A stretch of DNA of 64,000 bases from Leuctra nigra (Eukaryota; Arthropoda; Insecta; Plecoptera; Leuctridae): the NCBI GenBank assembly GCA_934045905.1, contig OW203768.1, forward strand, positions 21,776,770 to 21,840,769, in the 5' to 3' direction. The notes beneath the pieces are model-generated. The model saw nothing but the letters and a program-made list of their open reading frames with translations, ran no database searches and had not been told where the DNA came from. How positions within the stretch are numbered: the first letter of the stretch is position 1; the number at the start of each line of letters is the position of its first letter. A program made the translations under genes and the position numbers. This document shows, in pieces, positions 2,704-34,500 of this stretch.

Positions 2704-2765
2704 GGCTCATGGTCTAAGAAAGTAAGGATCCCATGAATCGCAAATCCTCAAGTTCCGCGATTTTA

Positions 2766-3920: not shown

Positions 3921-4157
3921 GTCCTTTAAATTTGGAAAACAACGAAAAAGTGTCGAAGTCAGGGTCGCGCGATTCGCGAAGAAAAGTAAATAAATCGCAC
4001 GATTGCCGTGCAATAATCGTTCGTGTTGTGCGTGTTTCTGATAATGGTGGTTGTCAGTACGGGTGTCAAAATGCCAAGTTTGTCACTCAGTATGGAAACA
4101 GCAATCGCGTCCCGCGTGCATTTATGATTCATGAGAACCTTACTTAAGCCGATGTAA

Positions 4158-7500: not shown

Positions 7501-10500
7501 TCATGGCTCTGCACTGCCTGCGGAGACGACAGGCAAGAGAGCATGCGCTCATGTGTCAAGTGTCATAGTTGGTACCATGAAGAATGTGTGGGACTGGAGG
7601 AAGATGATACAGATGACTTTGTATGTCCCGATTGTTCTGATTAGTAATTAGAATTAGCGGGCCTTGTTCCCCTCATATGGGGGGAACAAGGCCCGAATGC
7701 AACTTTTCATTAACTTTAAATTTTCAATGTCATATTTTTTTTTTTTTTTTTTAAAATCAATTGAATATTGTACTTAATAGATGACTTGTCAATATTTAAC
7801 TGTGTACACACTTATTTTGTACCTACATTAATAAATATTAATTAAAACAATTAAGGTGGGCCTTATTCCCCCCTAGGACCTTACTGTTAATATGGCGATA
7901 TTAGACTGGTATCTTTTCATAATTTGATCTTGACTGAAGGAAATCATGAAACGTTGTCAAATAATTACTAACTAATGGAACACAATTATATATTTTTGAA
8001 GTGTCAAGTGTATAAAGTTAAATTTTTTAATAGAAATTCAATATGACTGTCTTCTTTGTGAAATGTATTTTTATAAAATGTGTATTAATAGAAATTGTTA
8101 CATGATGAGAAGGTATAACGCATGAGACTTAATTATATTCACCACGAAACAATATTACGAAGATAACTATTGTGTATATTTATAGAAAGCATAGACAACA
8201 AGTTTCATAGCGTATATAATCATATAGAAAATATTTTACAGAAGGTATGTATAATATGTACCTAATTGAAAGATGTTTCCCTATTATTCTAAACATTCAA
8301 AATGACGGTTGTATATAAATGGCACATGCTTATGAATAGAAAAATGTCTTTAAAAAAACGATGCGCCAAGTCCTTTTGTAAAGTATTTCTCGGTGTTTAT
8401 ACTTTTATTTCAAAGATACGATTAAATATTTGGAAATGTCATTGACTTGGCTCCTTTTTTGATATCACTCCTTTTCGGTGTTGAATTTTTTTAAAGTAAA
8501 GAGACTTGGCTGCCTTTTTTACACGGAGTGTTTTTTTCTGGGATATCACTTCTTTTGTTAGTTTATTCATACAGCTTGTAGCACAGCTTGTGTCCGTGCA
8601 AGAACTTATTTCTTTAAAAAAATACGCCTATGCCGATTTGGATACTTAGAAAAGTTGCGTTTGGTATATAAGATTAAAATAATTATCCAAGAAGAATAGC
8701 TTTAAGTTTCGTTACAATCGGTCCAGCCGTTTTCGATATATGACGTCACTTCCGGTTTTAGCAATGGCGGCCGAAAATAATGTCGTCTTGAATTCATAAT
8801 TATTACTCCTACACATTTCCAAAATTTGGTTGCAATCGGTACAGCCGTTTTTGATATATGACGTCACTTCCGGTTTTAACAATGGCGGCCGAAAATAATG
8901 TCGTCTTGAATTCATAATTATTAGTACAACACATTTCCAAAATTTGGTTGCAATCGGTACAGCCATTTTCGATATATGACGTCACTTCCGGTTTTAACAA
9001 TGGCGGCCGAAAATAATGTCGTCTTGAATTCATAATTATTAGTCCAACACATTTCCAAACTTAGGTTGCAATCGGTACAACCGTTTACGATATATGACGT
9101 CACTTCCGGTTTTAAAAATGGCCGCCGAGAACACTGCAACCTTGAATTTATAATTATTTACAAAGTACGTTTACTTATATCTATTTTAAAGTATAAAGTG
9201 GTGAATTTAGCGTCATTTAGCATATTTATGACGTCATTTCCGGTATAGGTCATAAAATGTGTGACGTCATTTCCGGTTTCGATATTTGAATCATCAAATA
9301 TTACTGATTACATAAAGTTGACCGTCTAAATCGTTTAGCGCTGGTTTTGTTCTAATCTGTTTAGCCGTTTTTGAGACATGATGTCACTTCCGGTTTAAAA
9401 ATGGCGGCTTCCGGTTGGTTTTATAACAAGTCAAATGAAATATCAAAAGTACAAACGTTACATAAATATCAAGACAATCGGATCAACAGTTGTTGCTGAA
9501 ATGCAAATCGATGTATATTAAATTTCATGACGTCATTTCCGGTTTATTAAAAATAATGTTCAGTCTTTTGATATTGATAATCCATATAGATGACCGTCTG
9601 AAACGATTGGCGCAAATTTAGTTCCGATCGGTCCAACCGTTGACGAGATATGACGTCACTTCCGGTTTCAAAATGGCGGCACAAAAAATTCATGGGGACA
9701 AGGTTAAATCAGACGCCAAAAGTGCACACGTGGTAAAAATGTGAGATCAATCGGTTCAGCCGTTTAGGCTGTGGCCTGTTTACCGGATTTTAGCTCCAGC
9801 CTACTACTACTAAGATTATTATTATGAAAACCGCCCTAAAACACAGTTTTCACGGCCCTCTAGCGCGCAAAGGGCGTAACCTATTGTTCCCAAATTTGGT
9901 ATATGTTGTAGGGTGGGCCATAGCTCGAAATTAAGATATTTCGCAACAATGTGAGATTTCTCAATTTTAAGATCCAGTAGGCCGAAAATGCCACTTTGAT
10001 GCTTACAGTAAAAGTGGGTTTGCTCCAGCCTTTATATGAGAGTGTGCGCGCGCCGTACGACTTGGCTGGCGTGGAGCGACCGCTCCACTAGATATTCCAG
10101 AAAAAACACTCCGTGTAAAAAAGGCAGCCAAGTCTCTTTACTTTAAAAAAATTCAACAGCGAAAAGGAGTGAAATCAAAAAAGGAGCCAAGTTAATGACA
10201 TTTCCAAATATTTAATCGTATTTTTGAAATAAAAGTATAAACACCGAGAAATACTTGACAAAAGGACTTGGCGCATCGTTTTTTTAAAGACATCATTCTA
10301 TCCTAAAAGTATAAAGAAATTTACAAGTAAGTACATTTTCCTCTTTCTATTAGAGCCAGTATCTATGAATCAAGCTTCTTTTAGTAATGGCTATTTTATA
10401 GTTTTGTCAAAAGCGATTGAAGAAAGATGTCATGCTGTTATAGATAAGTAATATAAGGGCGGAAGAATTCAATAACAAGGAAGTCGGCTCTTATACACTC

Positions 10501-13500
10501 TTATAGGACTAACCAATGCTAACCAATTAGTCACCATTTGATAGCCAAATATAATAAACCAACACATCACCACTGGTTTGCTATTGGTTTACTCTTTCGT
10601 AAACCAATTCTAACCAATTAGTCACCATTTAACAGCCAAAGAGGAGTAAACAAACACATTACCAATGGTTTGCAGTTAGTTCACCCTTAAGAGAAGAATA
10701 AACCAATACATCACCACTGGTTTGCAATTGGATTACTCTTTTATCAACATCAAAATATTTTCACAAACATATCTTTCCACAATTTAGGTAATATATTAGT
10801 CACCATTTAACAGCCAAAGAAGAGTAAACCAACACCAAACGGAGAAACCATGGAGAACCATGGAGATGGAGAAACCAAAGACCTTACAATTGGTTGAGAA
10901 ACAGCATCAAAAACGTGGTTGGAGTAGAATCAGTTGATCGGACCGTTAGATTTAATATGAGTTTCATATGAAAACACATCGACACGGAGTTTTGGACAAC
11001 TTTTCAAATGAGCGCGTACTTATTATTTCGAAGAACTATTGAGTGACGAGAGAGAGTCAGATGTATTATTATTAAAAGTAACTATCTATATCAATTATTA
11101 AATAATCGAAGGAAAATAAAATGAGCACAGCTTGATTCGACATTGGTTTTTATGGATTAAAGCCTGATGCACAATTGAATTAAGGTTTATGGTACTATAT
11201 GGTGTAGTGATGTGTTTATAGTGTTTAAGAGAAATGAAAGGTGCTGTTATAACGTTATCATGCACAACTGTCACAAGCGTCACAAGGTTATGGTTTAAGG
11301 TATAAGCTGAAATAAGAAATGAACTAAATCCATTTCTTATTGCAAAACACTATTTTACCTTATCACGAACCAATCAGAAGAGAGCAGAGTAAATGTCAAT
11401 GTCAAATTCGTACGGAAAAATGAATAGTCTTCTGAATTAATGTCATTGGAAGCATTATAATTTGATATTTGTGCCTAGTCTTGCTCATATTTTTGTTTCC
11501 ATTCATTTTTCGATCAATTATTTAATTTTATCATGTTGAAATAACCTGGTGAAATAAGCAATTGTGCACTGGACCCTGTTATAACATCTTAAACACTGAA
11601 CACTAAACCTTAAACCATAAACATTAATTCAATTGTGCATCAAGCTTAATCAATCAATCAATTAATCAAATAAATCAATGAACGATGTGAAAATTATCCG
11701 GCCGAGTGGGGCTCGATCAAAGGAAGTTATGAAGTACAATAGCCTCTCGCCCGGCAAGTGAGAGGTCCCGGGTTCGAGCCCCGGTTCGGTCGGATATTTT
11801 TCACAACACACATCCCTTCATATCATCCTGACTCCATGGAAGTTTTCCAAAGAAACCTACATTCCCTACAATAGGTATACAAATTAAATAATTATCGTAA
11901 TACAGTATGTTCTAGTCGCCTTCTCAAGTCATGTGCCCCTCTAATCTGTGTGCCCTTAGCCGAGATAATCAATGCTTCACTCTCTCAAGGAACATTTCCC
12001 AGAGGTTTAAAAACAGCCAAGATTGTGCCAGTATTCAAAAAGGGCAGCAAATGTAAGCGAGAAAACTACAGACCAATTGCGCTATTATCGTCGTTCTCTA
12101 AGATCTTCAAAGTTGTCATGCACAATCGTATCTTGGACTTCCTGGAGAAATATAAACTTCTCTCCAGGATGCAATATGGATTTCAAAAGGGCAAACCCAC
12201 CATCCTTGCTATTGATAGTTTCCTAAACCAGGTGTACAAGGCTCTTGATAATAAATTGCCAGCCATTGGCATTTACTATGACATGTCCAAGGCGTTTGAC
12301 AGCCTCGATCATGCACTTCTACTAAGATCTCTGATGGGCCTTAACATTAGGGGCTTAGCACTTAGTTGGATAGAATCATTCTTATCTGACCGTTGTCAAT
12401 ATGTGTCAATCCACGACAGAGCAAGTAGTACATATTCAAATTCCGAGTCAAGAGATACTCACATAGGAGTACCGCAAGGCACTGTCCTGGGCCCGCTCCT
12501 CTACATCCTTTATGTAAACGGTCTGCCTGAGGCCTTAGGCCCGGGCACTGTTGCAAGCTTTGCAGATGACACGAGTCACCTCGTTACAGGCAAGAATCGG
12601 GAAGAGCTCGTCCAGATAGCAAATGTCGCCGTCCAAAACATGGCTTATTGGTGCAAGTCAGCCAAACTTATCCTGAGTGGAAGCAAAACTACATTTCTAC
12701 AGTTCCGAACAAGACAGCGGCACATCGACTCAAGCCCGTTAATAAAACTTGGCAGCAAGACACTAGCGGAGAGCGAGAGCACCAAATTCCTAGGCATCAC
12801 TATAAGCAATACACTTGACTGGACTGGGCATGTTGACGTCATCGCTAAGAAGATGGCCTCATCCATTTATCTCTTACGGAATCTTGTTAACCAGACCAGC
12901 CTATCGGTCCGTAGGGTAGCCTATTTTGCAAATGTTGAGTCCCATCTCAGCTATGGAGTGTGTTTTTGGGGATATGCACCTCCAGCTAAAAGGCTAATTA
13001 CAAAAAAAGGCCATAAGAATAATGATAGGAGCTTCGTATGGTGCAACGTGCAAGACACTATTTAAAAAATTAGAGATTTTAACCTTTCCTTGTCTTTATT
13101 TGTACCATACCATCATGTTAACCAGAACCACGCTTGACAACACACCGACCAACTCCCATGTACATGCCCATGCCACACGCACTCATGATGACATCCATGT
13201 AGAGGCACATGCACTATACCTGTATGGAAACAGCCATAATTATGCAGGCGCAAAATTTTATAATAGATTGCCGAAAATTTTAAAGGAAGAAAAATGCGAC
13301 AAACTGTTCAAATATAGACTTAGAAAGATTTTAATTGATAATTGTTTTTATTCTGTTACAGAATTTCTCGAGTATTTCGGCTGATGAATCGTTTTATTTA
13401 CTACATGCCATTGTGTATCATTATTTTATATTCTACATTGTTACCCTCACTTACCTGATTTGACTATGTATAGTTACTATGTACCTATTATTACTATGTA

Positions 13501-16500
13501 TTATTTATATTATTATTATGTATATTAATGTTTTATATTGACTTGTTCTATAACATTGTTTGTTAAGAGGCAAACGGAAGCGAACGGGAATCGCACGGTT
13601 TGTCAGAGCGTTTTTTGAAATTGTGTCTTCCCACTTAATAATTTTAAAAAATCAGATAGTAACGACCCATTACAGCCTTATAGACTAAATAATGCCGCAC
13701 ACTGGAGTTCATTATGACCTCTGGTACGACCTCAAAGTGTTAAATACGATATTTAAAAAAAAAAAAATTTGTGTTAAATACGATATTTTTAAAAAAATAA
13801 TCGTATTTTACACTGTGAGGTCGCACCAGAGGTCATAATGAACTCCAGTGTGCGGCATTATTTAGTCTATAAGGCTGTAATGGGTCGTTACTATCTGATT
13901 TTTTAAAATTATTAAGTGGGAAGACACAATTTCAAAAAACGCTCTGACAAAGCGTGTGATTCCCGTTCGCTTCCGTTTGCCTCTTAAATGGAATAAAATA
14001 TATTTGATTTGATTTGATTTGACTTAAGTTGCCAATTTTGAGTCAACGAAATTTCTCATTAGTATATTGACAGTTTTGGGAATCAAAATTATACTAAAAC
14101 GATCGTTGATGTTGATGTGAATAGGGAAGTCTCGTGAAGATTAGAATTCAGAATAATATTTATTTTATGAAAGTTGAGATGTTGCTGAACACAGATGTGG
14201 TATTATTTTTGTTGTTGGACGAATAGTTCTCATGTAATTAATTTACAAAGTTTGATAGATCTCCTCTCATTTAAAAACAGGAAAATTGGCAATGACATCA
14301 CAGTTTGCTATATTGCCATGGCAACAAGGGAATCCCCATGTCAACACAATGTTCAAGACTTGGAAATGACATCACATTTCTGATTCTTGTTAAAGGCCGT
14401 TTTTCCCGCCAAAAATCATATGATATTTGAACTCGATTTTTATGAATGAAAATTTAAGATTTCACAGGTAATAAGTGTATTTGTCATTTGTGTGTTTATT
14501 TATATAAATTTTCTAGAATAAAATTTCATGAGACTTCCCTCTTGTGCAGAGATGCAGACTTGATATCATCAGGAGGCAAGTAAGATCGCGTGACAGATCT
14601 CAGCCGATGAGATAGCTGCTCTGGTTTCATCTAAACTTGATAGAGTATCTCATGTTTTCTTAGAAACTTTTTTACAATAATTTTACTAGTTTTTCATTTG
14701 TCATTACTTGTGTATTCATTTGGTCGTAATTTTTTTTGTCGCGTATTTGTTTCTGAATAATTAACTCATTTATGATTTCAAATTTGGAACTTGGATTCGT
14801 TTAGATTAATTCGTACTTTTAATCTGTTGTAGATTTGTAATATTCCAAGTAGGTATTAATTGTTTTAGTAGTATTTAACGTTGCACTGTTCTGCATCTAA
14901 CCTAATGGCGACGGACTAATGATGATGATGATGATGATGATGGGAGATGATGGTGAATAGTAGGTAAAGATGGAAGGTGGGAAGGAGACGGTCGTGGTCT
15001 ATTAGTTGGGTATACCTTCCCGGCATTTGCTTATCGACTGAGCTAATACCACGAACAAAACCCTCAGGAATGACGCTTTTTAACATTTCCTAAACTTTGG
15101 TAGTTAGTGATAAATTAATCATAAATGCGAATCACACAACTTACAATTTGTAGGCGAGTCCCTCTTGTTCAAACTTATTGTATTAGATTATTAATTATGT
15201 AATAGGTTATCAGTTTTCTTGTACACAAATTATGATGGTTCGATCTGTGTAAAATGCCTAGTAATAAAATACGATTAAAAATCACAGTTTACTGAAAACT
15301 ATAGGTTAAATAAATGTTTAATGTTAGTTAACAGCAGACCAGCCGTTTCAGTGCAAGAAAAGTCATCTGCCTCCATGACGCAGAGCGTACGCTGTGAGAT
15401 GTCACGCAGAGGGATCCGCATTCAAATCTTCGTCGAAGCAAAATAATTTAAATTAGCATGCTAATAATAAATGTCCAGTTCTCCACATATATGTGGTAAA
15501 AATGTGCTTACCAATGTTAATTAAGCTGTAGTCATTAACTAGGAAAACAGTGTAACACGCTGATAAGCGAGCACCGGTGTGCAGCACATCTAACCATGAT
15601 CTAACCGAAATTCCGTAAATAATCCACAAATAATCACTTGCAGAATCACATCAGAGTTCAAATTTTCTTCAAAAACTGGTAAGATTGCCACAAAACCTTG
15701 AAAAATAAATCCAAGAGAAGCAAAAGACTTTCCCATCACTCCCAGGATCACAGAAATGTTAAAATTTTCTACAAACAATAGCTAGTCCACAAAACCTTAC
15801 GTTTACTAAAAAAAACCTCCAAGAAAGCATCGCCAAACAGCAAGAATAATCACTGGCAGAATATAAAAATAGTTTAACAACTGTCAATGTCAAAATATTT
15901 GTGAAAACATAATGTCACTGCCAACTGATATACAGAAATGCGGTAATCATGGTCCATAGGTATTTTTTATGAACATTTCGCAGAAGATTTCGTTGCTACG
16001 ATACAAAAATCAATTTCCGATGAAACCAATGGACCCAACTTGCTGAAAATCATTTTGTCCACAACCAGAATAGTAATATAAGTTTTGTGAAAAAATTGGC
16101 CTGATCCCTTACATTGTTTGGCAGGAGACGCCAAATGCACAAATAAACACACAAAAAAACAGAGATTCGAGCCATAAGTTTCAAGTCGTGACGCTCGCTA
16201 CGCTCGCTTGATTAAACATTTGAATTTTGTTATAAATTCTTGTAGTGCATTGGTGATTAAATTTATCAGTTGGTTTGTTTTGGTGACCAATTGGTTTATA
16301 AAGGTAATGAATTGATGTGTTTTGGCCGTCAGTTGGTTTGTGTTAGCCGAGAGCTTGGCTTGGCCTTTCCACTGAGTGGAAAGGGGGGGGGGGGGGGGGG
16401 GGGAGTTTAGGTGTGTGTCTGTTGATGGGTTAAGGTACGTTTACAGCTCGACGCGCCGATGCGTCGAAGCGCCGACCTTGAATCTTATCGGCGCTACGGC

Positions 16501-19500
16501 TCTTCGGCGTGTCCGAGCTGGAGCCACCTGATTAGTGATTGGCTATAGCGTCAAAGCGTCGAGCGCTTGTTGCCGAGCTGTAAGCTTACCTTTAGGTTGG
16601 ACGCGAGCCTATCAGTGGTGAAAGGGGGGGGGGGGGGGTACTCAGCCTGAGGCCATTGGCGTAAAACTGATCACCAATACATCACATTTTGAAACAAATG
16701 TGACGTATTGGTAATGAAAATGGTTTACAATTGGTGATGAAAATGGTTTACAAAATGTTTCAGTTGGTGATCAGTTGGTGAGCAGTCAATGTGAGTGAAA
16801 ATTATTCACCGTCCTTGGTGAGCAGTATTTTCTACTAGGGTTGTTACTCCTATTGGTTGATTAGTTCAGCTCATTAAGTTAGTTAGTCCATGGGCGTCAG
16901 CAGGATTCTGCCAGGAGGGAGCAACGTTTTAAAGTTCACTATACTTGCGGGGCGAGGGCCCCCAACATATTACGATTTCGGAGGGCACAGCCCGGGTTAT
17001 TTTTCGAACATTTTAACTCGATTCCAAGCATTTTGATGCGTTTTTGCATTCACTGTATTCTAGATAAGGATGTGTTAAAAGGAACATAGCCTAAAACAGA
17101 TATTTTCTTTATATTTCAGCAATATTTACAAACTTTCTAAGCATCATGAATCTACACTAAGTAAGAAATTATCCCGAAAATATCAGTGAGTCTAAGTCAC
17201 TTTCATCGAATAGGTAAAAAAAAAAACATATATATTTTTAAAAAACCAGGGAGGCGCAAGCGCCCCCTCCCCTTGTTATACTCACGAAAAATCTAAATGG
17301 GCCTGCATCCTACCCGTCCAGTCAATACAGTCGACTTTTACGTTACATGATAGTTGATAGTGTTTGTTACTTACGGTTAAGCTGTGGCCTGGGGATGGCG
17401 CCTGCACTCTACCCGTCCAGTCAATACAGTCGACTTTTACGTTACATGATAGTTGATAGTGTTTGTTACTTACGGTTAAGCTGTGGCCTGGGGATGGCGC
17501 CTGCACTCTACCCGTCCAGTCAATACAGTCGACTTTTACGTTACATGATAGTTGATAGTGTTTGTTACTTACGGTTAAGCTGTGGCCTGGGGATGGCGCC
17601 AGCACTCTACCCGTCCAGTCAATACAGTCGACTTTTACGTTACATGATAGTTGATAGTGTTTGTTACTTACGGTTAAGCTGTGGCCTGGGGATGGCGCCT
17701 GCACTCTACCCGTCCAGTCAATACAGTCGACTTTTACGTTACATGATAGTTGATAGTGTTTGTTACTTACGGTTAAGCTGTGGCCTGGGGATGGCGCCTG
17801 CACTCTACCCGTCCAGTCAATACAGTCGACTTTTACGTTACATGATAGTTGATAGTGTTTGTTACTTACGATTAAGCTGTGGCCTGGGGATGGCGCCAGC
17901 ACTCTACCCGTCCAGTCAATACAGTCGACTTTTACGTTACATGATAGTTGATAGTGTTTGTTACTTACGGTTAAGCTGTGGCCTGGGGATGGCGCCTGCA
18001 CTCTACCCGTCCAGTCAATACAGTCGACTTTTACGTTACATGATAGTTGATAGTGTTTGTTACTTACGGTTAAGCTGTGGCCTGGGGATGGCGCCAGCAC
18101 TCTACCCGTCCAGTCAATACAGTCGACTTTTACGTTACATGATAGTTGATAGTGTTTGTTACTTACGGTTAAGCTGTGGCCTGGGGATGGCGCCAGCACC
18201 CTACCCGTCCAGTCAATACAGTCGACTTTTACGTTACATGATAGTTGATAGTGTTTGTTACTTACGGTTAAGCTGTGGCCTGGGGATGGCGCCAGCACTC
18301 TACCCGTCCAGTCAATACAGTCGACTTTTACGTTACATGATAGTTGATAGTGTTTGTTACTTACGGTTAAGCTGTGGCCTGGGGATGGCGCCTGCCCCTA
18401 CCCGTCCAGTCAACACAGTCGACTTTTACGTTACATGATAGTTGATAGTGTTTGTTACTTACGGTTAAGCTGTGGCCTGGGGATGGCGCCTGCACTCTAC
18501 CCGTCCAGTTAATACAGTCGACTTTTACGTTACATGATAGTTGATAGTGTTTGTTACTTACGGTTAAGCTGTGGCCTGGGGATGGCGCCAGCACTCTACC
18601 CGTCCAGTCAATACAGTCGACTTTTACGTTACATGATAGTTGATAGTGTTTGTTAATTACGGTTAAGCTGTGGCCTGGGGATGGCGCCTGCACTCTACCC
18701 GTCCAGTCAATACAGTCGACTTTTACGTTACATGATAGTTGATAGTGTTTGTTACTTACGGTTAAGCTGTGGCCTGGGGATGGCGCCTGCACCCTACCCG
18801 TCCAGTCAACACAGTCGACTTTTACGTTACATGATAGTTGATAGTGTTTGTTACTTACGGTTAAGCTGTGGCCTGGGGATGGCGCCTGCCCCTACCCGTC
18901 CAGTCAACACAGTCGACTTTTACGTTACATGATAGTTGATAGTGTTTGTTACTTACGGTTAAGCTGTGGCCTGGGGATGGCGCCTGCACTCTACCCGTCC
19001 AGTCAATACAGTCGACTTTTACGTTACATGATAGTTGATAGTGTTTGTTACTTACGGTTAAGCTGTGGCCTGGGGATGGCGCCTGCACTCTACCCGTCCA
19101 GTCAACACAGTCGACTTTTACGTTACATGATAGTTGATAGTGTTTGTTACTTACGGTTAAGCTGTGGCCTGGGGATGGCGCCAGCACTCTACCCGTCCAG
19201 TCAATACAGCCGACTTTTACGTTACATGATAGTTGATAGTGTTTGTTACTTACGGTTAAGCTGTGGCCTGGGGTTGGCGCCTGCACTCTACCCGTCCAGT
19301 CAATACAGTCGACTTTTACGTTACATGATAGTTGATAGTGTTTGTTACTTACGGTTAAGCTGTGGCCTGGGGATGGCGCCTGCACTCTACCCGTCCAGTC
19401 AATACAGTCGACTTTTACGTTACATGATAGTTGATAGTGTTTGTTACTTACGGTTAAGCTGTGGCCTGGGGATGGCGCCAGCACCCTACCCGTCCAGTCA

Positions 19501-22500
19501 ATACAGTCGACTTTTACGTTACATGATAGTTGATAGTGTTTGTTACTTACGGTTAAGCTGTGGCCTGGGGATGGCGCCAGCACTCTACCCGTCCAGTCAA
19601 TACAGTCGACTTTTACGTTACATGATAGTTGATACTGTGTGTTACTTACGGTTAAGCTGTGGCCTGGGGTTGGCGCCAGCACCCTACCCGTCCAGTCAAT
19701 ACAGTCGACTTTTACGTTACATGATAGTTGATAGTGTTTGTTACTTACGGTTAAGCTGTGGCCTGGGGATGGCGCCTGCACTCTACCCGTCCAGTCAATA
19801 CAGTCGACTTTTACGTTACATGATAGTTGATAGTGTTTGTTACTTACGGTTAAGCTGTGGCCTGGGGATGGCGCCTGCACTCTACCCGTCCAGTCAATAC
19901 AGTCGACTTTTACGTTACATGATAGTTGATAGTGTTTGTTACTTACGGTTAAGCTGTGGCCTGGGGATGGCGCCTGCACTCTACCCGTCCAGTCAATACA
20001 GTCGACTTTTACGTTACATGATAGTTGAATGTGTTTGTTACTTACGGTTAAGCTGTGGCCTGGAGATGGCGCCTGCACTCTACCCGTCCAGTTAATACAG
20101 TCGACTTTTACGTTACATGATAGTTGATAGTGTTTGTTACTTACGGTTAAGCTGTGGCCTGGGGATGGCGCCTGCATCCTACCCGTCCAGTCAATACAGT
20201 CGACTTTTACGTTACATGATAGTTGATATTGTGTGTTACTTACGGTTAAGCTGTGGCCTGGGGTTGGCGCCTGCACCCTACCCGTCCAGTCAATACAGTC
20301 GACTTTTACGTTACATGATAGTTGATAGTGTTTGTTACTTACGGTTAAGCTGTGGCCTGGGGTTGGCGCCAGCACTCTACCCGTCCAGTCAATACAGTCG
20401 ACTTTTACGTTACATGATAGTTGATAGTGTTTGTTACTTACGGTTAAGCTGTGGCCTGGGGATGGCGCCTGCACTCTACCCGTCCAGTCAATACAGTCGA
20501 CTTTTACGTTACATGATAGTTGATAGTGTTTGTTACTTACGGTTAAGCTGTGGCCTGGGGTTGGCGCCTGCACTCTACCCGTCCAGTCAACACAGTCGAC
20601 TTTTACGTTACATGATAGTTGATAGTGTTTGTTACTTACGGTTAAGCTGTGGCCTGGGGATGGCGCCAGCACTCTACCCGTCCAGTCAATACAGTCGACT
20701 TTTACGTTACATGATAGTTGATAGTGTTTGTTACTTACGGTTAAGCTGTGGCCTGGGGATGGCGCCTGCCCCTACCCGTCCAGTCAACACAGTCGACTTT
20801 TACGTTACATGATAGTTGATAGTGTTTGTTACTTACGGTTAAGCTGTGGCCTGGGGATGGCGCCTGCACTCTACCCGTCCAGTCAATACAGTCGACTTTT
20901 ACGTTACATGATAGTTGATAGTGTTTGTTACTTACGGTTAAGCTGTGGCCTGGGGATGGCGCCAGCACTCTACCCGTCCAGTCAATACAGTCGACTTTTA
21001 CGTTACATGATAGTTGATACTGTGTGTTACTTACGGTTAAGCTGTGGCCTGGGGTTGGCGCCAGCACCCTACCCGTCCAGTCAATACAGTCGACTTTTAC
21101 GTTACATGATAGTTGATAGTGTTTGTTACTTACGGTTAAGCTGTGGCCTGGGGATGGCGCCTGCACTCTACCCGTCCAGTCAATACAGTCGACTTTTACG
21201 TTACATGATAGTTGATAGTGTTTGTTACTTACGGTTAAGCTGTGGCCTGGGGATGGCGCCTGCACTCTACCCGTCCAGTCAATACAGTCGACTTTTACGT
21301 TACATGATAGTTGATAGTGTTTGTTACTTACGGTTAAGCTGTGGCCTGGGGTTGGCGCCAGCACTCTACCCGTCCAGTCAATACAGTCGACTTTTACGTT
21401 ACATGATAGTTGATAGTGTTTGTTACTTACGGTTAAGCTGTGGCCTGGGGATGGCGCCTGCACTCTACCCGTCCAGTCAATACAGTCGACTTTTACGTTA
21501 CATGATAGTTGATAGTGTTTGTTACTTACGGTTAAGCTGTGGCCTGGGGATGGCGCCTGCACTCTACCCGTCCAGTCAATACAGTCGACTTTTACGTTAC
21601 ATGATAGTTGATAGTGTTTGTTACTTACGGTTAAGCTGTGGCCTGGGGATGGCGCCTGCACTCTACCCGTCCAGTCAATACAGTCGACTTTTACGTTACA
21701 TGATAGTTGATAGTGTTTGTTACTTACGGTTAAGCTGTGGCCTGGGGATGGCGCCTGCACTCTACCCGTCCAGTCAACACAGTCGACTTTTACGTTACAT
21801 GATAGTTGATAGTGTTTGTTACTTACGGTTAAGCTGTGGCCTGGGGATGGCGCCTGCACTCTACCCGTCCAGTCAATACAGCCGACTTTTACGTTACATG
21901 ATAGTTGATAGTGTTTGTTACTTACGGTTAAGCTGTGGCCTGGGGATGGCGCCTGCCCCTACCCGTCCAGTCAACACAGTCGACTTTTACGTTACATGAT
22001 AGTTGATAGTGTTTGTTACTTACGGTTAAGCTGTGGCCTGGGGATGGCGCCTGCACTCTACCCGTCCAGTCAATACAGTCGACTTTTACGTTACATGATA
22101 GTTGATAGTGTTTGTTACTTACGGTTAAGCTGTGGCCTGGGGATGGCGCCTGCACTCTACCCGTCCAGTCAACACAGTCGACTTTTACGTTACATGATAG
22201 TTGATAGTGTTTGTTACTTACGGTTAAGCTGTGGCCTGGGGATGGCGCCTGCACTCTACCCGTCCAGTCAATACAGCCGACTTTTACGTTACATGATAGT
22301 TGATAGTGTTTGTTACTTACGGTTAAGCTGTGGCCTGGGGATGGCGCCTGCCCCTACCCGTCCAGTCAACACAGTCGACTTTTACGTTACATGATAGTTG
22401 ATAGTGTTTGTTACTTACGGTTAAGCTGTGGCCTGGGGTTGGCGCCTGCACTCTACCCGTCCAGTCAATACAGTCGACTTTTACGTTACATGATAGTTGA

Positions 22501-25500
22501 TAGTGTTTGTTACTTACGGTTAAGCTGTGGCCTGGGGATGGCGCCTGCACTCTACCCGTCCAGTCAATACAGTCGACTTTTACGTTACATGATAGTTGAT
22601 AGTGTTTGTTACTTACGGTTAAGCTGTGGCCTGGGGTTGGCGCCTGCACTCTACCCGTCCAGTCAATACAGTCGACTTTTACGTTACATGATAGTTGATA
22701 GTGTTTGTTACTTACGGTTAAGCTGTGGCCTGGGGATGGCGCCTGCCCCTACCCGTCCAGTCAACACAGTCGACTTTTACGTTACATGATAGTTGATAGT
22801 GTTTGTTACTTACGGTTAAGCTGTGGCCTGGGGATGGCGCCTGCACTCTACCCGTCCAGTCAATACAGTCGACTTTTACGTTACATGATAGTTGATAGTG
22901 TTTGTTACTTACGGTTAAGCTGTGGCCTGGGGATGGCGCCTGCACTCTACCCGTCCAGTCAACACAGTCGACTTTTACGTTACATGATAGTTGATAGTGT
23001 TTGTTACTTACGGTTAAGCTGTGGCCTGGGGATGGCGCCAGCACTCTACCCGTCCAGTCAATACAGCCGACTTTTACGTTACATGATAGTTGATAGTGTT
23101 TGTTACTTACGGTTAAGCTGTGGCCTGGGGTTGGCGCCTGCACTCTACCCGTCCAGTCAATACAGTCGACTTTTACGTTACATGATAGTTGATAGTGTTT
23201 GTTACTTACGGTTAAGCTGTGGCCTGGGGATGGCGCCTGCACTCTACCCGTCCAGTCAATACAGTCGACTTTTACGTTACATGATAGTTGATAGTGTTTG
23301 TTACTTACGGTTAAGCTGTGGCCTGGGGATGGCGCCAGCACCCTACCCGTCCAGTCAATACAGTCGACTTTTACGTTACATGATAGTTGATAGTGTTTGT
23401 TACTTACGGTTAAGCTGTGGCCTGGGGATGGCGCCAGCACTCTACCCGTCCAGTCAATACAGTCGACTTTTACGTTACATGATAGTTGATACTGTGTGTT
23501 ACTTACGGTTAAGCTGTGGCCTGGGGTTGGCGCCAGCACCCTACCCGTCCAGTCAATACAGTCGACTTTTACGTTACATGATAGTTGATAGTGTTTGTTA
23601 CTTACGGTTAAGCTGTGGCCTGGGGATGGCGCCTGCACTCTACCCGTCCAGTCAATACAGTCGACTTTTACGTTACATGATAGTTGATAGTGTTTGTTAC
23701 TTACGGTTAAGCTGTGGCCTGGGGATGGCGCCTGCACTCTACCCGTCCAGTCAATACAGTCGACTTTTACGTTACATGATAGTTGATAGTGTTTGTTACT
23801 TACGGTTAAGCTGTGGCCTGGGGATGGCGCCTGCACTCTACCCGTCCAGTCAATACAGTCGACTTTTACGTTACATGATAGTTGAATGTGTTTGTTACTT
23901 ACGGTTAAGCTGTGGCCTGGAGATGGCGCCTGCACTCTACCCGTCCAGTTAATACAGTCGACTTTTACGTTACATGATAGTTGATAGTGTTTGTTACTTA
24001 CGGTTAAGCTGTGGCCTGGGGATGGCGCCTGCATCCTACCCGTCCAGTCAATACAGTCGACTTTTACGTTACATGATAGTTGATATTGTGTGTTACTTAC
24101 GGTTAAGCTGTGGCCTGGGGATGGCGCCTGCACTCTACCCGTCCAGTCAATACAGTCGACTTTTACGTAACATGATAGTTGATAGTGTTTGTTACTTACG
24201 GTTAAGCTGTGGCCTGGGGTTGGCGCCAGCACTCTACCCGTCCAGTCAATACAGTCGACTTTTACGTTACATGATAGTTGATAGTGTTTGTTACTTACGG
24301 TTAAGCTGTGGCCTGGGGATGGCGCCTGCACTCTACCCGTCCAGTCAATACAGTCGACTTTTACGTTACATGATAGTTGATAGTGTTTGTTACTTACGGT
24401 TAAGCTGTGGCCTGGGGTTGGCGCCTGCACTCTACCCGTCCAGTCAACACAGTCGACTTTTACGTTACATGATAGTTGATAGTGTTTGTTACTTACGGTT
24501 AAGCTGTGGCCTGGGGATGGCGCCAGCACTCTACCCGTCCAGTCAATACAGTCGACTTTTACGTTACATGATAGTTGATAGTGTTTGTTACTTACGGTTA
24601 AGCTGTGGCCTGGGGATGGCGCCAGCACCCTACCCGTCCAGTCAATACAGTCGACTTTTACGTTACATGATAGTTGAATGTGTTTGTTACTTACGGTTAA
24701 GCTGTGGCCTGGGGATGGCGCCAGCACCCTAGCCGTCCAGTCAATACAGTCGACTTTTACGTTACATGATAGTTGATAGTGTTTGTTACTTACGGTTAAG
24801 CTGTGGCCTGGGGATGGCGCCTGCACTCTACCCGTCCAGTCAATACAGTCGACTTTTACGTTACATGATAGTTGATAGTGTTTGTTACTTACGGTTAAGC
24901 TGTGGCCTGGGGATGGCGCCTGCACTCTACCCGTCCAGTCAATACAGTCGACTTTTACGTTACATGATAGTTGATAGTGTTTGTTACTTACGGTTAAGCT
25001 GTGGCCTGGGGATGGCGCCTGCACTCTACCCGTCCAGTCAATACAGTCGACTTTTACGTTACATGATAGTTGATAGTGTTTGTTACTTACGGTTAAGCTG
25101 TGGCCTGGGGATGGCGCCTGCACTCTACCCGTCCAGTCAATACAGTCGACTTTTACGTTACATGATAGTTGATAGTGTTTGTTACTTACGGTTAAGCTGT
25201 GGCCTGGGGATGGCGCCTGCACTCTACCCGTCCAGTCAATACAGTCGACTTTTACGTTACATGATAGTTGATAGTGTTTGTTACTTACGGTTAAGCTGTG
25301 GCCTGGGGTTGGCGCCAGCACTCTACCCGTCCAGTCAATACAGTCGACTTTTACGTTACATGATAGTTGATAGTGTTTGTTACTTACGGTTAAGCTGTGG
25401 CCTGGGGATGGCGCCTGCACTCTACCCGTCCAGTCAATACAGTCGACTTTTACGTTACATGATAGTTGATAGTGTTTGTTACTTACGGTTAAGCTGTGGC

Positions 25501-28500
25501 CTGGGGATGGCGCCTGCACTCTACCCGTCCAGTCAATACAGTCGACTTTTACGTTACATGATAGTTGATAGTGTTTGTTACTTACGGTTAAGCTGTGGCC
25601 TGGGGATGGCGCCTGCACTCTACCCGTCCAGTCAACACAGTCGACTTTTACGTTACATGATAGTTGATAGTGTTTGTTACTTACGGTTAAGCTGTGGCCT
25701 GGGGATGGCGCCTGCACTCTACCCGTCCAGTCAATACAGTCGACTTTTACGTTACATGATAGTTGATAGTGTTTGTTACTTACGGTTAAGCTGTGGCCTG
25801 GGGTTGGCGCCTGCACTCTACCCGTCCAGTCAATACAGCCGACTTTTACGTTACATGATAGTTGATAGTGTTTGTTACTTACGGTTAAGCTGTGGCCTGG
25901 GGATGGCGCCTGCCCCTACCCGTCCAGTCAACACAGTCGACTTTTACGTTACATGATAGTTGATAGTGTTTGTTACTTACGGTTAAGCTGTGGCCTGGGG
26001 ATGGCGCCTGCACTCTACCCGTCCAGTCAATACAGTCGACTTTTACGTTACATGATAGTTGATAGTGTTTGTTACTTACGGTTAAGCTGTGGCCTGGGGA
26101 TGGCGCCTGCACTCTACCCGTCCAGTCAACACAGTCGACTTTTACGTTACATGATAGTTGATAGTGTTTGTTACTTACGGTTAAGCTGTGGCCTGGGGAT
26201 GGCGCCTGCACTCTACCCGTCCAGTCAATACAGCCGACTTTTACGTTACATGATAGTTGATAGTGTTTGTTACTTACGGTTAAGCTGTGGCCTGGGGATG
26301 GCGCCTGCCCCTACCCGTCCAGTCAACACAGTCGACTTTTACGTTACATGATAGTTGATAGTGTTTGTTACTTACGGTTAAGCTGTGGCCTGGGGTTGGC
26401 GCCTGCACTCTACCCGTCCAGTCAATACAGTCGACTTTTACGTTACATGATAGTTGATAGTGTTTGTTACTTACGGTTAAGCTGTGGCCTGGGGATGGCG
26501 CCTGCACTCTACCCGTCCAGTCAATACAGTCGACTTTTACGTTACATGATAGTTGATAGTGTTTGTTACTTACGGTTAAGCTGTGGCCTGGGGTTGGCGC
26601 CTGCACTCTACCCGTCCAGTCAATACAGTCGACTTTTACGTTACATGATAGTTGATAGTGTTTGTTACTTACGGTTAAGCTGTGGCCTGGGGTTGGCGCC
26701 TGCACTCTACCCGTCCAGTCAATACAGTCGACTTTTACGTTACATGATAGTTGATAGTGTTTGTTACTTACGGTTAAGCTGTGGCCTGGGGATGGCGCCT
26801 GCACCCTACCCGTCCAGTCAATACAGTCGACTTTTACGTTACATGATAGTTGATAGTGTTTGTTACTTACGGTTAAGCTGTGGCCTGGGGATGGCGCCAG
26901 CACTCTACCCGTCCAGTCAATACAGTCGACTTTTACGTTACATGATAGTTGATAGTGTTTGTTACTTACGGTTAAGCTGTGGCCTGGGGATGGCGCCTGC
27001 ACTCTACCCGTCCAGTCAATACAGTCGACTTTTACGTTACATGATAGTTGATAGTGTTTGTTACTTACGGTTAAGCTGTGGCCTGGGGATGGCGCCTGCA
27101 CTCTACCCGTCCAGTCAATACAGCCGACTTTTACGTTACATGATAGTTGATAGTGTTTGTTACTTACGGTTAAGCTGTGGCCTGGGGTTGGCGCCTGCAC
27201 TCTACCCGTCCAGTCAATACAGTCGACTTTTACGTTACATGATAGTTGATAGTGTTTGTTACTTACGGTTAAGCTGTGGCCTGGGGATGGCGCCTGCACT
27301 CTACCCGTCCAGTCAATACAGTCGACTTTTACGTTACATGATAGTTGATAGTGTTTGTTACTTACGGTTAAGCTGTGGCCTGGGGTTGGCGCCTGCACTC
27401 TACCCGTCCAGTCAATACAGTCGACTTTTACGTTACATGATAGTTGATAGTGTTTGTTACTTACGGTTAAGCTGTGGCCTGGGGATGGCGCCTGCACTCT
27501 ACCCGTCCAGTCAATACAGTCGACTTTTACGTTACATGATAGTTGATAGTGTTTGTTACTTACGGTTAAGCTGTGGCCTGGGGATGGCGCCTGCACTCTA
27601 CCCGTCCAGTCAATACAGTCGACTTTTACGTTACATGATAGTTGATAGTGTTTGTTACTTACGGTTAAGCTGTGGCCTGGGGATGGCGCCTGCACTCTAC
27701 CCGTCCAGTCAATACAGTCGACTTTTACGTTACATGATAGTTGATAGTGTTTGTTACTTACGGTTAAGCTGTGGCCTGGGGATGGCGCCTGCACTCTACC
27801 CGTCCAGTCAATACAGTCGACTTTTACGTTACATGATAGTTGATAGTGTTTGTTACTTACGGTTAAGCTGTGGCCTGGGGATGGCGCCTGCACTCTACCC
27901 GTCCAGTCAATACAGTCGACTTTTACGTTACATGATAGTTGATAGTGTTTGTTACTTACGGTTAAGCTGTGGCCTGGGGATGGCGCCTGCACTCTACCCG
28001 TCCAGTCAATACAGTCGACTTTTACGTTACATGATAGTTGATAGTGTTTGTTACTTACGGTTAAGCTGTGGCCTGGGGATGGCGCCTGCACTCTACCCGT
28101 CCAGTCAATACAGTCGACTTTTACGTTACATGATAGTTGATAGTGTTTGTTACTTACGGTTAAGCTGTGGCCTGGGGATGGCGCCTGCACCCTACCCGTC
28201 CAGTCAGTACAGTAGACTTTTACGTTACATGATAGTTGATAGTGTTTGTTACTTACGGTTAAGCTGTGGCCTGGGGATGGCGCCTGCACTCTACCCGTCC
28301 AGTCAACACAGTCGACTTTTACGTTACATGATAGTTGATAGTGTTTGTTACTTACGGTTAAGCTGTGGCCTGGGGTTGGCGCCTGCACTCTACCCGTCCA
28401 GTCAATACAGTCGACTTTTACGTTACATGATAGTTGATAGTGTTTGTTACTTACGGTTAAGCTGTGGCCTGGGGATGGCGCCTGCACTCTACCCGTCCAG

Positions 28501-31500
28501 TCAATACAGTCGACTTTTACGTTACATGATAGTTGATAGTGTTTGTTACTTACGGTTAAGCTGTGGCCTGGGGTTGGCGCCTGCACTCTACCCGTCCAGT
28601 CAATACAGTCGACTTTTACGTTACATGATAGTTGATAGTGTTTGTTACTTACGGTTAAGCTGTGGCCTGGGGTTGGCGCCTGCACTCTACCCGTCCAGTC
28701 AATACAGTCGACTTTTACGTTACATGATAGTTGATAGTGTTTGTTACTTACGGTTAAGCTGTGGCCTGGGGATGGCGCCAGCACTCTACCCGTCCAGTCA
28801 ATACAGTCGACTTTTACGTTACATGATAGTTGATAGTGTTTGTTACTTACGGTTAAGCTGTGGCCTGGGGATGGCGCCTGCACTCTACCCGTCCAGTCAA
28901 TACAGTCGACTTTTACGTTACATGATAGTTGATAGTGTTTGTTACTTACGGTTAAGCTGTGGCCTGGGGATGGCGCCTGCACTCTACCCGTCCAGTCAAC
29001 ACAGTCGACTTTTACGTTACATGATAGTTGATAGTGTTTGTTACTTACGGTTAAGCTGTGGCCTGGGGATGGCGCCTGCACTCTACCCGTCCAGTCAACA
29101 CAGTCGACTTTTACGTTACATGATAGTTGATAGTGTTTGTTACTTACGGTTAAGCTGTGGCCTGGGGATGGCGCCTGCACTCTACCCGTCCAGTCAATAC
29201 AGTCGACTTTTACGTTACATGATAGTTGATAGTGTTTGTTACTTACGGTTAAGCTGTGGCCTGGGGATGGCGCCTGCACTCTACCCGTCCAGTCAACACA
29301 ATCGACTTTTACGTTACATGATAGTTGATAGTGTTTGTTACTTACGGTTAAGCTGTGGCCTGGGGATGGCGCCTGCACTCTACCCGTCCAGTCAATACAG
29401 TCGACTTTTACGTTACATGATAGTTGATAGTGTTTGTTACTTACGGTTAAGCTGTGGCCTGGGGTTGGCGCCTGCACTCTACCCGTCCAGTCAATACAGT
29501 CGACTTTTACGTTACATGATAGTTGATAGTGTTTGTTACTTACGGTTAAGCTGTGGCCTGGGGTTGGCGCCTGCACTCTACCCGTCCAGTCAATACAGTC
29601 GACTTTTACGTTACATGATAGTTGATAGTGTTTGTTACTTACGGTTAAGCTGTGGCCTGGGGATGGCGCCAGCACTCTACCCGTCCAGTCAATACAGTCG
29701 ACTTTTACGTTACATGATAGTTGATAGTGTTTGTTACTTACGGTTAAGCTGTGGCCTGGGGATGGCGCCTGCACTCTACCCGTCCAGTCAATACAGTCGA
29801 CTTTTACGTTACATGATAGTTGATAGTGTTTGTTACTTACGGTTAAGCTGTGGCCTGGGGATGGCGCCTGCACTCTACCCGTCCAGTCAACACAGTCGAC
29901 TTTTACGTTACATGATAGTTGATAGTGTTTGTTACTTACGGTTAAGCTGTGGCCTGGGGATGGCGCCTGCACTCTACCCGTCCAGTCAACACAGTCGACT
30001 TTTACGTTACATGATAGTTGATAGTGTTTGTTACTTACGGTTAAGCTGTGGCCTGGGGATGGCGCCTGCACTCTACCCGTCCAGTCAATACAGTCGACTT
30101 TTACGTTACATGATAGTTGATAGTGTTTGTTACTTACGGTTAAGCTGTGGCCTGGGGATGGCGCCTGCACTCTACCCGTCCAGTCAACACAATCGACTTT
30201 TACGTTACATGATAGTTGATAGTGTTTGTTACTTACGGTTAAGCTGTGGCCTGGGGATGGCGCCAGCACCCTACCCGTCCAGTCAATACAGTCGACTTTT
30301 ACGTTACATGATAGTTGATAGTGTTTGTTACTTACGGTTAAGCTGTGGCCTGGGGTTGGCGCCTGCACCCTACCTGTCCAGTCAACACAGGCGATCCGGA
30401 CGGTTGCAGACAGATCGAAGGATCTTTCAGCCACGAGTAAAGCTATGTTGTGGATGCGACTCCCCACAACGTACTGATCGTTGAGGATGATTGACTTGAC
30501 GTTCCGGCTTTGTGCGTTGGGTTCATTGACGTTGTAATCCATCATATGCTTCCCAGCCATGAGTAGAAACTGAGACGTGGGATATACCTTACCGTCATCG
30601 TCTGTCAGTCTCCACGCATCTGAAACAATCAAAGGCGACAATAATAATATTACATTAGTCATTTGTTTAAAACTGAGGTTATTGCTTTAAAATAGAGTGG
30701 TGGTCTATTTACAGTCTCTTTAAATTTAAACTAGGAAAACGCTTAGTGTATGCTTTACCTTGCATACACATTTTTAAGTCTTAGATAACTAATTCAAGAA
30801 GCATAATGAATGCATGGTAATTTGATGATTTTTTTTGTGTGAATATGTGAACAATATGTGAATCAATGAAAAACCGTCTTCTTGTCCTTCCTGAAAAGAT
30901 TTGCAGCTGCTGCTTAGTTCCTTTGAACTCGATGTATTATGAACATGCATTTCTTCTTAATTTAACGACACATTATTTTCATCGGAAAATCATGACCTTT
31001 ATCAGGTACTACGCAAGACAGGCGTATATGAATTATGATTACTGTGTAACAGTGTAAAAATTAATAAATTTTGACAATGTCAATAAAAAAAAATATTTTC
31101 GGAGACCTTTACACAATTTTTTATATCTTTGAACATTGGTTAGGAGAAGGAATGGGGAACGGAAGGAAGGAGGAACGGAAGGAATGAGGAACGGGAGGAA
31201 GGAGGATTGGAAGGAAGTCTTAACGGAAAGATGGAGGAACGGTAGGATGGAGGAACGGTTCTCGATTTGTTGGCTACATGTTAGTATCGGCCTCCATCTC
31301 GTTCTTTCTCACACTTGTATACATTATTCTATTAGTAAACTGTCCTTATACTTACATGAAATCACATGCGTTTTGGTTATTAGAGTGCCAGTTGTTGAGT
31401 ATCCCCAATCGTTGCTGGTAGCACTCGATCTCTTGTAGCCCACGACAAACCATGGCCTATCAGAAGTTACCCACTCTCCGGCCACTTGAGACTCAGTTGT

Positions 31501-34500
31501 CTCCGATTGTTTGCCACATTCTGAAAAGGAAGTGATAAATATATGAGTATGTATTCTCAATAATAAACCTCAGTCTCCCAAACATTTTTATTTGATACTG
31601 TAGGACATAATTTACGGTGCCGAATCTTCATATAGAGTCCTGGGGACCGCTATGGAAACTGACGGATTGTGTCAAATTTTCCCAAAATACCTAAGTCTTC
31701 CCAAGGCTCATTATTTACTCCACTGTTATGCAACTTTGGGAGGTAGTTTGATACCCATTTTCTCGTAATACTATTGAGAAATTTTAAGAAATACTTGAAA
31801 CAAAAAGAGTTATTTTTCGTTTTTTTTCATGAAAATTTATGTGAGAAATAAAACTTTTTATTTTAATATTTTTTAAATTTTCTCAATAGTATTACGAGAA
31901 AATGGGTATCAAAACTACCTCCCAAAGTTGCATAACAGTGGAGTAAATAATGAGCCTTGGGGAGACTTAGGTATTTTGGGAAAATTTGACACAATCCGTC
32001 AGTTTCCATACCCCAGGACTGTTAAACGTGAAATATTGAAAGAATGTCTAGGATGTATAAAACAAACATTGTGGCATGAACAGATTTCAAGAAATTGAAG
32101 GGTCGCGTCGATAAACCAGCTAATGATATTAGTTAACTTGTTTAGACGCGCATAGCAAGCCATGTTCAGTGGTGGGGTTTACTTTAACTCCTTACTGTTG
32201 AAACCTGTGTTATTCCTTCCATAATTATTTTAAAACGAATTAAAATGTCTAGGTTGTCGTACTTCGTTGCATTGTATTTGTAATATTGAAGTTTGTCACC
32301 AAATATCTCAGTTAGCCAACCGGTTAGTTAGAGGGTTATCGACGCGACGGGGCCCCTCAATTGATTTTTTTATTTTTTCATGGGCTTATAGGTGATACAA
32401 GCGCTCGGCCGTTTTAGAAAATTGAGAGAGAAAATTGTTTCATAAGTGAGTGTAACTTTTACAGGATGTTCACATGATCAGTCTGATTGTATATAAGTAG
32501 CACTTTTTAATTTTTGCTCATTGCATCGTTAATTAGGCGCCGGTTATTCAACAAAACCGCGCAAAACTATGAAATTTGCGATACGATTGGAGACCAAACC
32601 CGTAAACCAATTGATCTCAAATTTTAATCATGATTAGATGAAAGACAAACTTAGGGTTATCACTTGGCACATTTTTGAAATTTAATTTAATACGGCACCC
32701 AGGGAGACAAGAAAATAGCTAATTTTTCATCCAAAATCCACTAATTATTACAAAAATTAACTAAAAAAAAATTAAAAATGTACCAAGGGATAACCCTAAG
32801 TTTGTCTTTTATATAATTACGATTAAAATTTCAAATAATTTGGTCTACCCATTTAGTCTCCAATCGTATCGGAAAAAGTGTCTACAAAAAGCAGCAAAAT
32901 CGCTTGCGTTGCAGCACCGTTCTGCAGTGAGGCTACCTAATGGCAACGGATGAATGGTTATGAAGACGTACCTACTTACTGTTTGGACTACGATCAACAC
33001 TTTACAGGGATTAGCAACCAGTCTGCGCATGTGACGTCATTCCCATAAGACCAATGTTAAATCAGAGTTGGGTAAGTTACTTGTAAAAAGGAACTAGTTA
33101 CTCTGTAAGTTAATCAATATCATAATCATAATATTTACCTAAATGTGTTATATTATAGTTGTAGCATATCTATAGATATTAATTTATTTTAATTTCAATG
33201 CTATTTAATTATAATATGCTAGGTTACTAGATTTAGTTCGATGTAACCTTTCCGTATACCCCGTTAAATGGTGTCAACCATAGGGGTCTTTTCAATGTAC
33301 CTCTTTAAAATGTACTTTTGATTTTGGAAATAAACTGAACTGAACTGAACCTGATCTCAAAAGGAACTAAGTTACTTGGTAAGTTACTTGATTTGAAAAG
33401 TAACTGAGTTACTTTTAAGTTACTTTAAAGTTACTTTTCGGATATTTTTTCGACAAAAAACAAACGTGATTGAACTCCGCCGAGGGTTTAACTTGTTCGT
33501 CTAATAGGCGAGCAAAGCAATTTTATTATTTGTATTTACTCACAGTCATCGTGCTCACAGTCAAAAAAATAAATTTAAATTGCACTCGCGGTAACTGGTA
33601 AATTTATTGCATGCACCTCGTTCTCTTCACTTCTTTAAATGGTCCATCCATGTGACAATCGCTTTGATTTGTGAAAGACTGCATCTGATTGGGTATAGGT
33701 ACATTTTATGTAAAAACGACCCTTATTGGCTAGTAATGAATGACGTCATACTTGTTTTCACTTTGGATATAGGTATGATTCTCGGAAAAATTTGCTGCTG
33801 CACCTGCAATCATCCCCCAGCCCAACTACCTGCTAATGACTTGTGGAAGGAAATAGATCAATGGGAAGGAAGGACACACATTTCATTTCCTGTGATTTGT
33901 TGTCTGGGTTTATGATTTTCTCTCAAGAGATAGATAGATAGGGAGTTTGTAGACTGTGAAAATATTATATTTTTGTCAAATTATTTCACCTAAAAGTAAC
34001 TTTTAAAGTAACGAAAATTAAGTTACAAGTTCCTGTAAAATTGTAACTTAGTTACTCACAAAGTTACTGAGGATGAAAAGTAACTAGTTACCCCAAAAGT
34101 TACCTTAAAAGTAACTAGTTACCAGTAACTAGTTACTTTCGTTAAGTTACTACCCAACTCTGTGTTAAATGGACGCGGTGAATGTATAGTTTTAAATTTC
34201 GTTTTGCACACGCCGGCATTGCACACGCATTGCACACACACTTTCGGAGCTTCGCGTATTAAGCCGCCAGAGTGAAAAACATGCTACCATCACATGACGT
34301 GTATTCGCGCGCATTACATAATTTCATATTACTTGAATCACAAAATAATGGAAATGTTTGCGTGATATTTGATTAATTTTTTTTTAAACATTCACATTTT
34401 ATCCTTCAAAGCCTCGAAGGGCTTATCTGAAGGTTTCTTAATCATTAAACATTTTCAAGAGGTCGAACATGAAACAATGAATATCAATAGTAGGTATAAT

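Follow-up and report, generated by a model that had tools for sequence, protein, structure and literature searches.

Why would one intron repeat its own 5' splice site well over a hundred times, and which of these sites would then end the exon? The question is raised by a stretch of 64,000 nucleotides (nt) of the Leuctra nigra genome (536.2 Mb), chromosome 7:21,776,770-21,840,769 (OW203768.1), hereafter the window, in which a trypsin-like gene on the minus strand carries a tandem array at the start of its intron 5. The 99-base-pair (bp) unit of this array takes 54 bp from the end of exon 5 and 45 bp from the start of intron 5, the latter including the donor GTAAGT, and this position of the unit across the exon-intron junction is not due to chance. 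We consider it likely that the array is a minisatellite of the kind called mirages in amphioxus, of unusual size and in a minisatellite-rich genome, and that it is tolerated because, with splicing at the exon-proximal donor, the remainder leaves with the intron.

Tandem Repeats Finder (TRF) reported a period of 99 with 132.4 copies and 98% matches. Anchoring the count on the donor gave 132 positions (131 GTAAGT and one GTAATT), the first at 30335 and the last at 17374 on the minus strand. The preliminary description of this locus, made from the letters alone, had claimed 132 donor positions at one per 99-bp unit, a unit made of 54 bp of exon and 45 bp of intron, and a single visibly mutated donor at 18660-18655, and the donor-anchored count bore out all three. 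Donors were spaced by 99 bp in 123 of the 131 intervals and by 98 bp in the other 8, and the eight units of 98 bp each arose through a 1-bp deletion. The donor context was ACC|GTAAGT at 130 of 132 positions, with one ATC|GTAAGT (a changed -2 base) and one ACC|GTAATT. Recursive splice sites with a zero-length exon were considered and rejected, since no AG directly precedes the GT at any of the 132 donor positions. A search of viral contigs with the pattern of the unit gave no match.

The gene model was worked out for exons 4, 5 and 6, with an intron 4 of 736 nt. Joining exon 5 to exon 6 in phase 0 leaves the only open frame, the other two frames of exon 6 being closed before its end, and the product of exons 4-6 matched the Pfam family PF00089 (Trypsin) at 22.2 bits (cut-off 20.6) across this join. 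We take the product to be a serine-protease homologue, as the usual catalytic residues seem, from the sequence, to be absent. Searches with the product found no homologue in the protein collection at E <= 0.001, no match in NCBIfam and none in the PDB at 0.01; at 10, the PDB gave 18 weak trypsin-fold matches. The genome contains many relatives of the gene: a search with it gave at least 204 matches, part of them units of the window array itself, and from these relatives we took the 17 best-scoring loci, about 3.3 kb each, picked by gene similarity and not by arrays. In 17 of 17, the end of the exon 5 homologue is at the corresponding position and is followed by GTAAGT, GTGAGT or GTAAGG, which is evidence for the donor at 30335 that does not depend on the array; judged by homology, this donor is real. 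The exon 5/exon 6 model of the preliminary description was thus upheld by the phase-0 join, by the Trypsin match and by the shared exon end.

Among the 132 whole units, 27 were distinct. A run of 14 units, 9 of them non-consensus, reappears 39 units away, indicating growth of the array through duplication of blocks. In unit 1, the exon part departs from the consensus at 4 of 54 sites, one of them unique to unit 1, and the intron part at none. As read from the sequence, a segment over the exon 5 donor was duplicated in tandem, followed by repeated block duplication and homogenisation. In units 2-132, variable columns numbered 11 of 54 in the exon-derived and 9 of 45 in the intron-derived part, and 1 of 6 in the donor hexamer versus 19 of 93 elsewhere (Fisher p = 1). 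The constancy of the donor, in this small sample of changes, reflects a homogenised array and not measured selection. If translated, the changes would comprise 3 silent, 18 missense and 0 stop, when 22-28% silent and about 5% stops are expected, and with eight frameshifted units the array has neither the kept frame nor the purifying selection of a coding tandem repeat. Selection on the donor or on an encoded peptide was rejected on these variation counts, of which the few changes limit the power.

These counts bear on two possible functions of the array, elaborated here from the isoform production and the U1 holding that the preliminary description had suggested. In the first, the donors would generate a ladder of in-frame isoforms: phase 0 is open throughout the unit, and each of donors 1-41 would add n x 33 residues and keep the frame with exon 6, until the deletion in unit 42 is followed by a stop; the open frame out of exon 5 ends at 26283, just ahead of the unit 42 donor. 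The 147-bp unit at one related locus is also divisible by three. However, this holds for only 2 of the 5 junction units, that of the window included (not for those of 122, 131 and 149 bp at three other loci), eight units are frameshifted, and the changes look neutral. Inserting a single unit lowered the Trypsin score from 22.2 to 16.2 bits, the match now ending within exon 5, and a long open frame also runs on the opposite strand of the array, which makes the openness of its frame weak evidence for coding. We therefore regard an isoform ladder as very unlikely.

In the second, the array would hold U1 small nuclear ribonucleoprotein (snRNP), delaying the splicing of intron 5 or shielding this long intron from premature polyadenylation. 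The 131 GTAAGT donors pair with U1 at -7.3 kcal/mol, a value equalled or bettered by 59 of 2876 GT sites outside the array on the same strand, and AATAAA or ATTAAA occurs 0 times in the array versus 24 times in the rest of intron 5. Nevertheless, the donor is conserved no more than the rest of the unit, and the donors are mostly buried in predicted structure, with a median unpaired probability of 0.087 (first donor 0.056; real exon 4 donor 0.009). Arrays of acceptors and of a stop codon, described below, argue that the process is not confined to donors, and tandem GTAAGT triplets were not above a reversed control genome-wide, so that we find U1 holding very unlikely. Neither function is supported, given the lack of extra constraint on the donor, the neutral-looking changes, the 8 frameshifts and the Trypsin match broken by one added unit.

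The window array exceeds every other junction array found here in length, but it is not alone. Donor arrays at the exon 5 junction were present in 4 of the 17 related loci (units of 122, 131, 147 and 149 bp), and further arrays lie at an exon 5 acceptor, at exon 4 donors and over a stop codon at the end of the last coding exon (Table 1). They are arranged around one intact exon, with donor arrays downstream, acceptor arrays upstream and the stop-codon array downstream. At L029, donor arrays stand at two successive exons, the homologues of exons 4 and 5 (reverse-complement 1-615 and 1718-2464). Ten of the 17 loci had no such array within the stretch examined, and L027, by eye the closest to L031 at the junction, had none within 1.5 kb downstream. 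The count omits one row each at L037 and L039, of 186 and 188 bp in two copies, which we took for a dispersed element because their size equals that of a window repeat at 62918-63289, and a 22-bp row (78%) at L027.

All eight arrays in these loci touch an exon edge, seven of them a splice junction (the edge at L034 is the stop codon). Under uniform placement, the probability that all 8 lie at an exon edge would be 8e-8, and that 7 or more do, about 5e-6; the edges were taken from protein matches, and any edge undetected there goes uncounted. Such figures would fit splice junctions being hotspots at which tandem duplications arise by mutation, for instance because breaks linked to transcription occur there or because the exon shares short homologies with the start of the intron, and at L032 the breakpoints do share a 5-mer: by eye, its units join at ACAAC and the intron continues past the last unit. 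However, 7 of the 8 arrays have a higher GC content than the remainder of the stretch in which they lie (the eighth has an equal one), and GC bias together with selection against within-exon arrays could give the same pattern. The exon-side starts at L031, L032 and L042 are, in addition, near one another (residues 53-56 of the exon 5 query), and some of the exon 5 junction arrays of these three loci might, from this similarity, share an origin.

Outside the family, 18 arbitrary 10-kb stretches (180 kb) contained, after merging, 14 arrays of 200 bp or more, covering 19.7 kb. Splice junctions were spanned by 4 of the 14, the other ten not all having been inspected closely; against an assumed expectation of 5% this has a probability of 0.004, and at 10% one of 0.04. 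Of these four, one repeats a donor (L003), one repeats an acceptor in front of a complete exon (L008), and the remaining two, one of each type, lie in a single GMC oxidoreductase gene. The putative exons at the L003 and L008 arrays rest on an open frame and splice signals, with no family match and no clear PDB match. Adjoining stretches L021 and L010 (C8:2990001-3006736) hold a 116-bp minisatellite of at least 144 copies and at least 16.7 kb, so that a length of 13 kb is not unusual in this genome. In contrast to what a hotspot would lead one to expect, GTAAGT triplets showed no genome-wide excess over the reversed hexamer, either at spacings of 106-136 bp (4331 + 2349 = 6680 versus 5362 + 5349 = 10711) or at 84-114 bp (3991 + 1983 = 5974 versus 5079 + 4813 = 9892); these counts overlap, so that long arrays weigh heavily, and the reversed control matches composition only. 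Tandem GTAAGT is common in this genome, yet without excess. With evidence on both sides, we hold junction hotspots to be possible but doubtful. Equally tentative is a process acting genome-wide that would amplify donor and acceptor junctions into perhaps thousands of arrays (4 per 180 kb, crudely scaled) through a mutational cause linked to transcription or splice sites.

A further alternative is an assembly artefact, in the existence of the array or in its unit number. HiFi reads are about as long as the 13-kb array, which counts in favour of an artefact. The assembly, ipLeuNigr2.1, is given a contig N50 of 0.6 Mb, which also does, and a 32x HiFi coverage and a quality value (QV) of 57.2, which speak against it (PMC10280035); the same source lists chromosome 7 at 37.12 Mb and the alternate haplotype assembly as GCA_934046545.1. 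The whole window contains zero N, the array has ordered variants and block copies, and similar arrays with intact flanks occur at related loci. We consider an artefact highly improbable.

In humans, the minisatellite of IFI6 (6-16) reportedly has 26 units of 12 bp. Like the window array, it lies over an exon end and multiplies the donor (Turri et al. 1995). In amphioxus, mirages are minisatellites at exon-intron boundaries, described in Adh3, globin, TnC and PGBD5 genes (PMC3087553, PMC3902484). As in our array, tandem units span a junction, 5' or 3', many of the units retain their splice signals, the interior evolves in concert while the boundary units stand apart, and several genes of one genome are affected. 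Indeed, the window array repeats 54 + 45 bp across the boundary, retains GTAAGT in 131 of 132 units, and has a homogenised interior with block copies next to a deviating unit 1, and junction arrays recur in this genome in the related loci, the GMC oxidoreductase gene and two exons without family match. The contention of the preliminary description that no case had been described is therefore wrong in kind, although no unit number in the available portions of these reports comes near 132. The differences are that the unit numbers stated in those portions for amphioxus are small (haplotypes of 6 and 3 in BflGb6; a duplicate in BflGb9), that two downstream units of IFI6 are reported as used, and that the window array, with its 99-bp unit, belongs to an insect, hits one junction repeatedly across relatives and is known from sequence alone.

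Other repeats resemble it in part. Internal tandem repeats in human segmental duplications lie in part at exon-intron boundaries, where they also alter gene structure, but the gene-modifying ones average four 30-bp units, and novel introns have been proposed for them (PMC2812944). The hTERT intron 6 variable number tandem repeat likewise makes intronic repeat number a splicing variable, but its units lie more than 1 kb from exon junctions and act via RNA pairing, not donors (PMC3948165). For earthworm metallothionein, the accessible text describes intronic tandem repeats, with no boundary array in it (PMC12783039). Among the matches listed in a topical search of the open-access literature, there was no array this large, none from an insect and none that hits a single junction in several related genes. 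The kind is thus already known, if rarely noticed, from IFI6 and amphioxus; what appears to be new is the scale, the insect host and the recurrence at one junction across relatives.

How the gene would be spliced follows from the position of the array. Exon 5 stands complete, donor included, ahead of the array, so that the protein would be unaffected while the exon-proximal donor is used. Because introns 4 and 5 are long, exon definition should choose the nearest donor across exon 5: we infer that the exon 5 acceptor pairs with the donor at 30335 and that the other 131 are removed within the intron. When minigenes offered two equal donors under exon definition, splicing went exclusively to the upstream one (PMC9225289), and lancelet mirages are said to leave splicing undisturbed (PMC3087553, PMC3902484). 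The array is thus probably spliced out harmlessly, and would be tolerated rather than kept for function. Its recurrence would be due to the abundance of GC-rich minisatellites in this genome, those touching exons persisting if one exon and its splice sites stay intact. The neutral minisatellite that the preliminary description had offered as an alternative is accordingly the best-supported reading; its wording that the repeat merely happened to start across a junction proved too weak, with junction arrays recurring in the family and in arbitrary stretches.

Several observations weigh against a tolerated minisatellite with a single working donor. Non-consensus cells are fewer in the intron-derived part (28) than in the exon-derived part (118), and with 7 of 8 arrays on splice junctions and none purely intronic, tolerance alone leaves the bias unexplained. 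In human data without filtering, each of the four intron classes favours the downstream donor, the upstream one being preferred only at near-equal strength (PMC9225289), and the two downstream units of IFI6 reported as donors make minor use of donor 2 or 3 possible in the window array. Moreover, a second GT, 38 bp upstream in every unit, pairs better with U1 (-8.5 versus -7.3 kcal/mol). As this GT is favoured by U1 energy and the first donor is not favoured by accessibility, neither measure picks the working site.

Table 1 Features of the window gene and array, and junction arrays at other loci
Locus	Feature	Position	Strand	Details
Window	Tandem array	17297..30394	-	TRF; ~132 units, exon 5 end + intron 5 start
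Window	Exon 4	31356..31520	-	165 nt; trypsin-like (serine-protease homologue) gene
Window	Exon 5	30336..30619	-	284 nt; same gene
Window	Intron 5	4521..30335	-	25,815 bp; array = half of intron
Window	Exon 6	4158..4520	-	last exon, carries stop codon
Window	First donor, GTAAGT	30330..30335	-	predicted working donor of exon 5
Window	Unit 42 donor, first base	26277	-	earliest of the eight 1-bp-deletion units
Window	Sole mutated donor, GTAATT	18655..18660	-	unit 119
Window	Last donor of array, first base	17374	-	
L031	Exon 5 donor array			147 bp, at least 11 copies (runs to locus end), usually three GTAAGT per full unit
L032	Exon 5 donor array			122 bp, 12 copies, 12 GTAAGT
L029	Exon 5 donor array			149 bp, 5 copies, 4 GTAAGT + one GTAAGC
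L042	Exon 5 donor array			131 bp, 4 copies, 4 GTAAGT
L038	Exon 5 acceptor array	333-1554	reverse-complement	55 bp, ~22 copies, acceptor + exon start
L026	Exon 4 donor array			2 copies; cut by locus start
L029	Exon 4 donor array			3.6 copies
L034	Stop-codon array, end of last coding exon	2391-3321		153 bp, at least 6 copies (runs to locus end)
L003	Donor array			43 bp, 18 copies, 16 with GTAAGT
L008	Acceptor array ahead of one complete exon	2607-4330 (C6:3002607-3004330)		143 bp, 12 copies, 3' splice site + exon start
L012	Acceptor array and donor array	3749-4632 and 7503-7793 (C10, 3,000,001 onward)		one GMC oxidoreductase gene

Other features were seen alongside the gene. Antisense within intron 5 lies an open frame for a DDE/psq transposase with a terminal PHD finger (5935-7641 +), and two frames, at 11875-13062 + and 35158-36648 +, resemble non-LTR (long terminal repeat) reverse transcriptases by eye. 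An open frame at 40199-40723 - has a cysteine-rich part and two EF-hands. Elsewhere in the genome, L043 (on C13, ~51.65 Mb, a size that fits the X chromosome) is a nuclear copy of mitochondrial DNA with the order I-Q-M-ND2-W-C-Y-COI-L-COII-K-D, the ancestral insect mitochondrial order.

With 131 identical donor hexamers behind one exon, this gene amounts to a natural experiment on donor choice, for which exon definition predicts use of the first only; if junctions are indeed amplified genome-wide, the window array would be a natural test of how the spliceosome chooses among 131 identical donors. Gene finders may mis-model loci that carry junction arrays. In the family, recurrence at one junction in related genes allows a preference of tandem repeats for splice junctions to be tested, and the loci with and without an array bear on a proposed origin of new introns from duplicated junctions.

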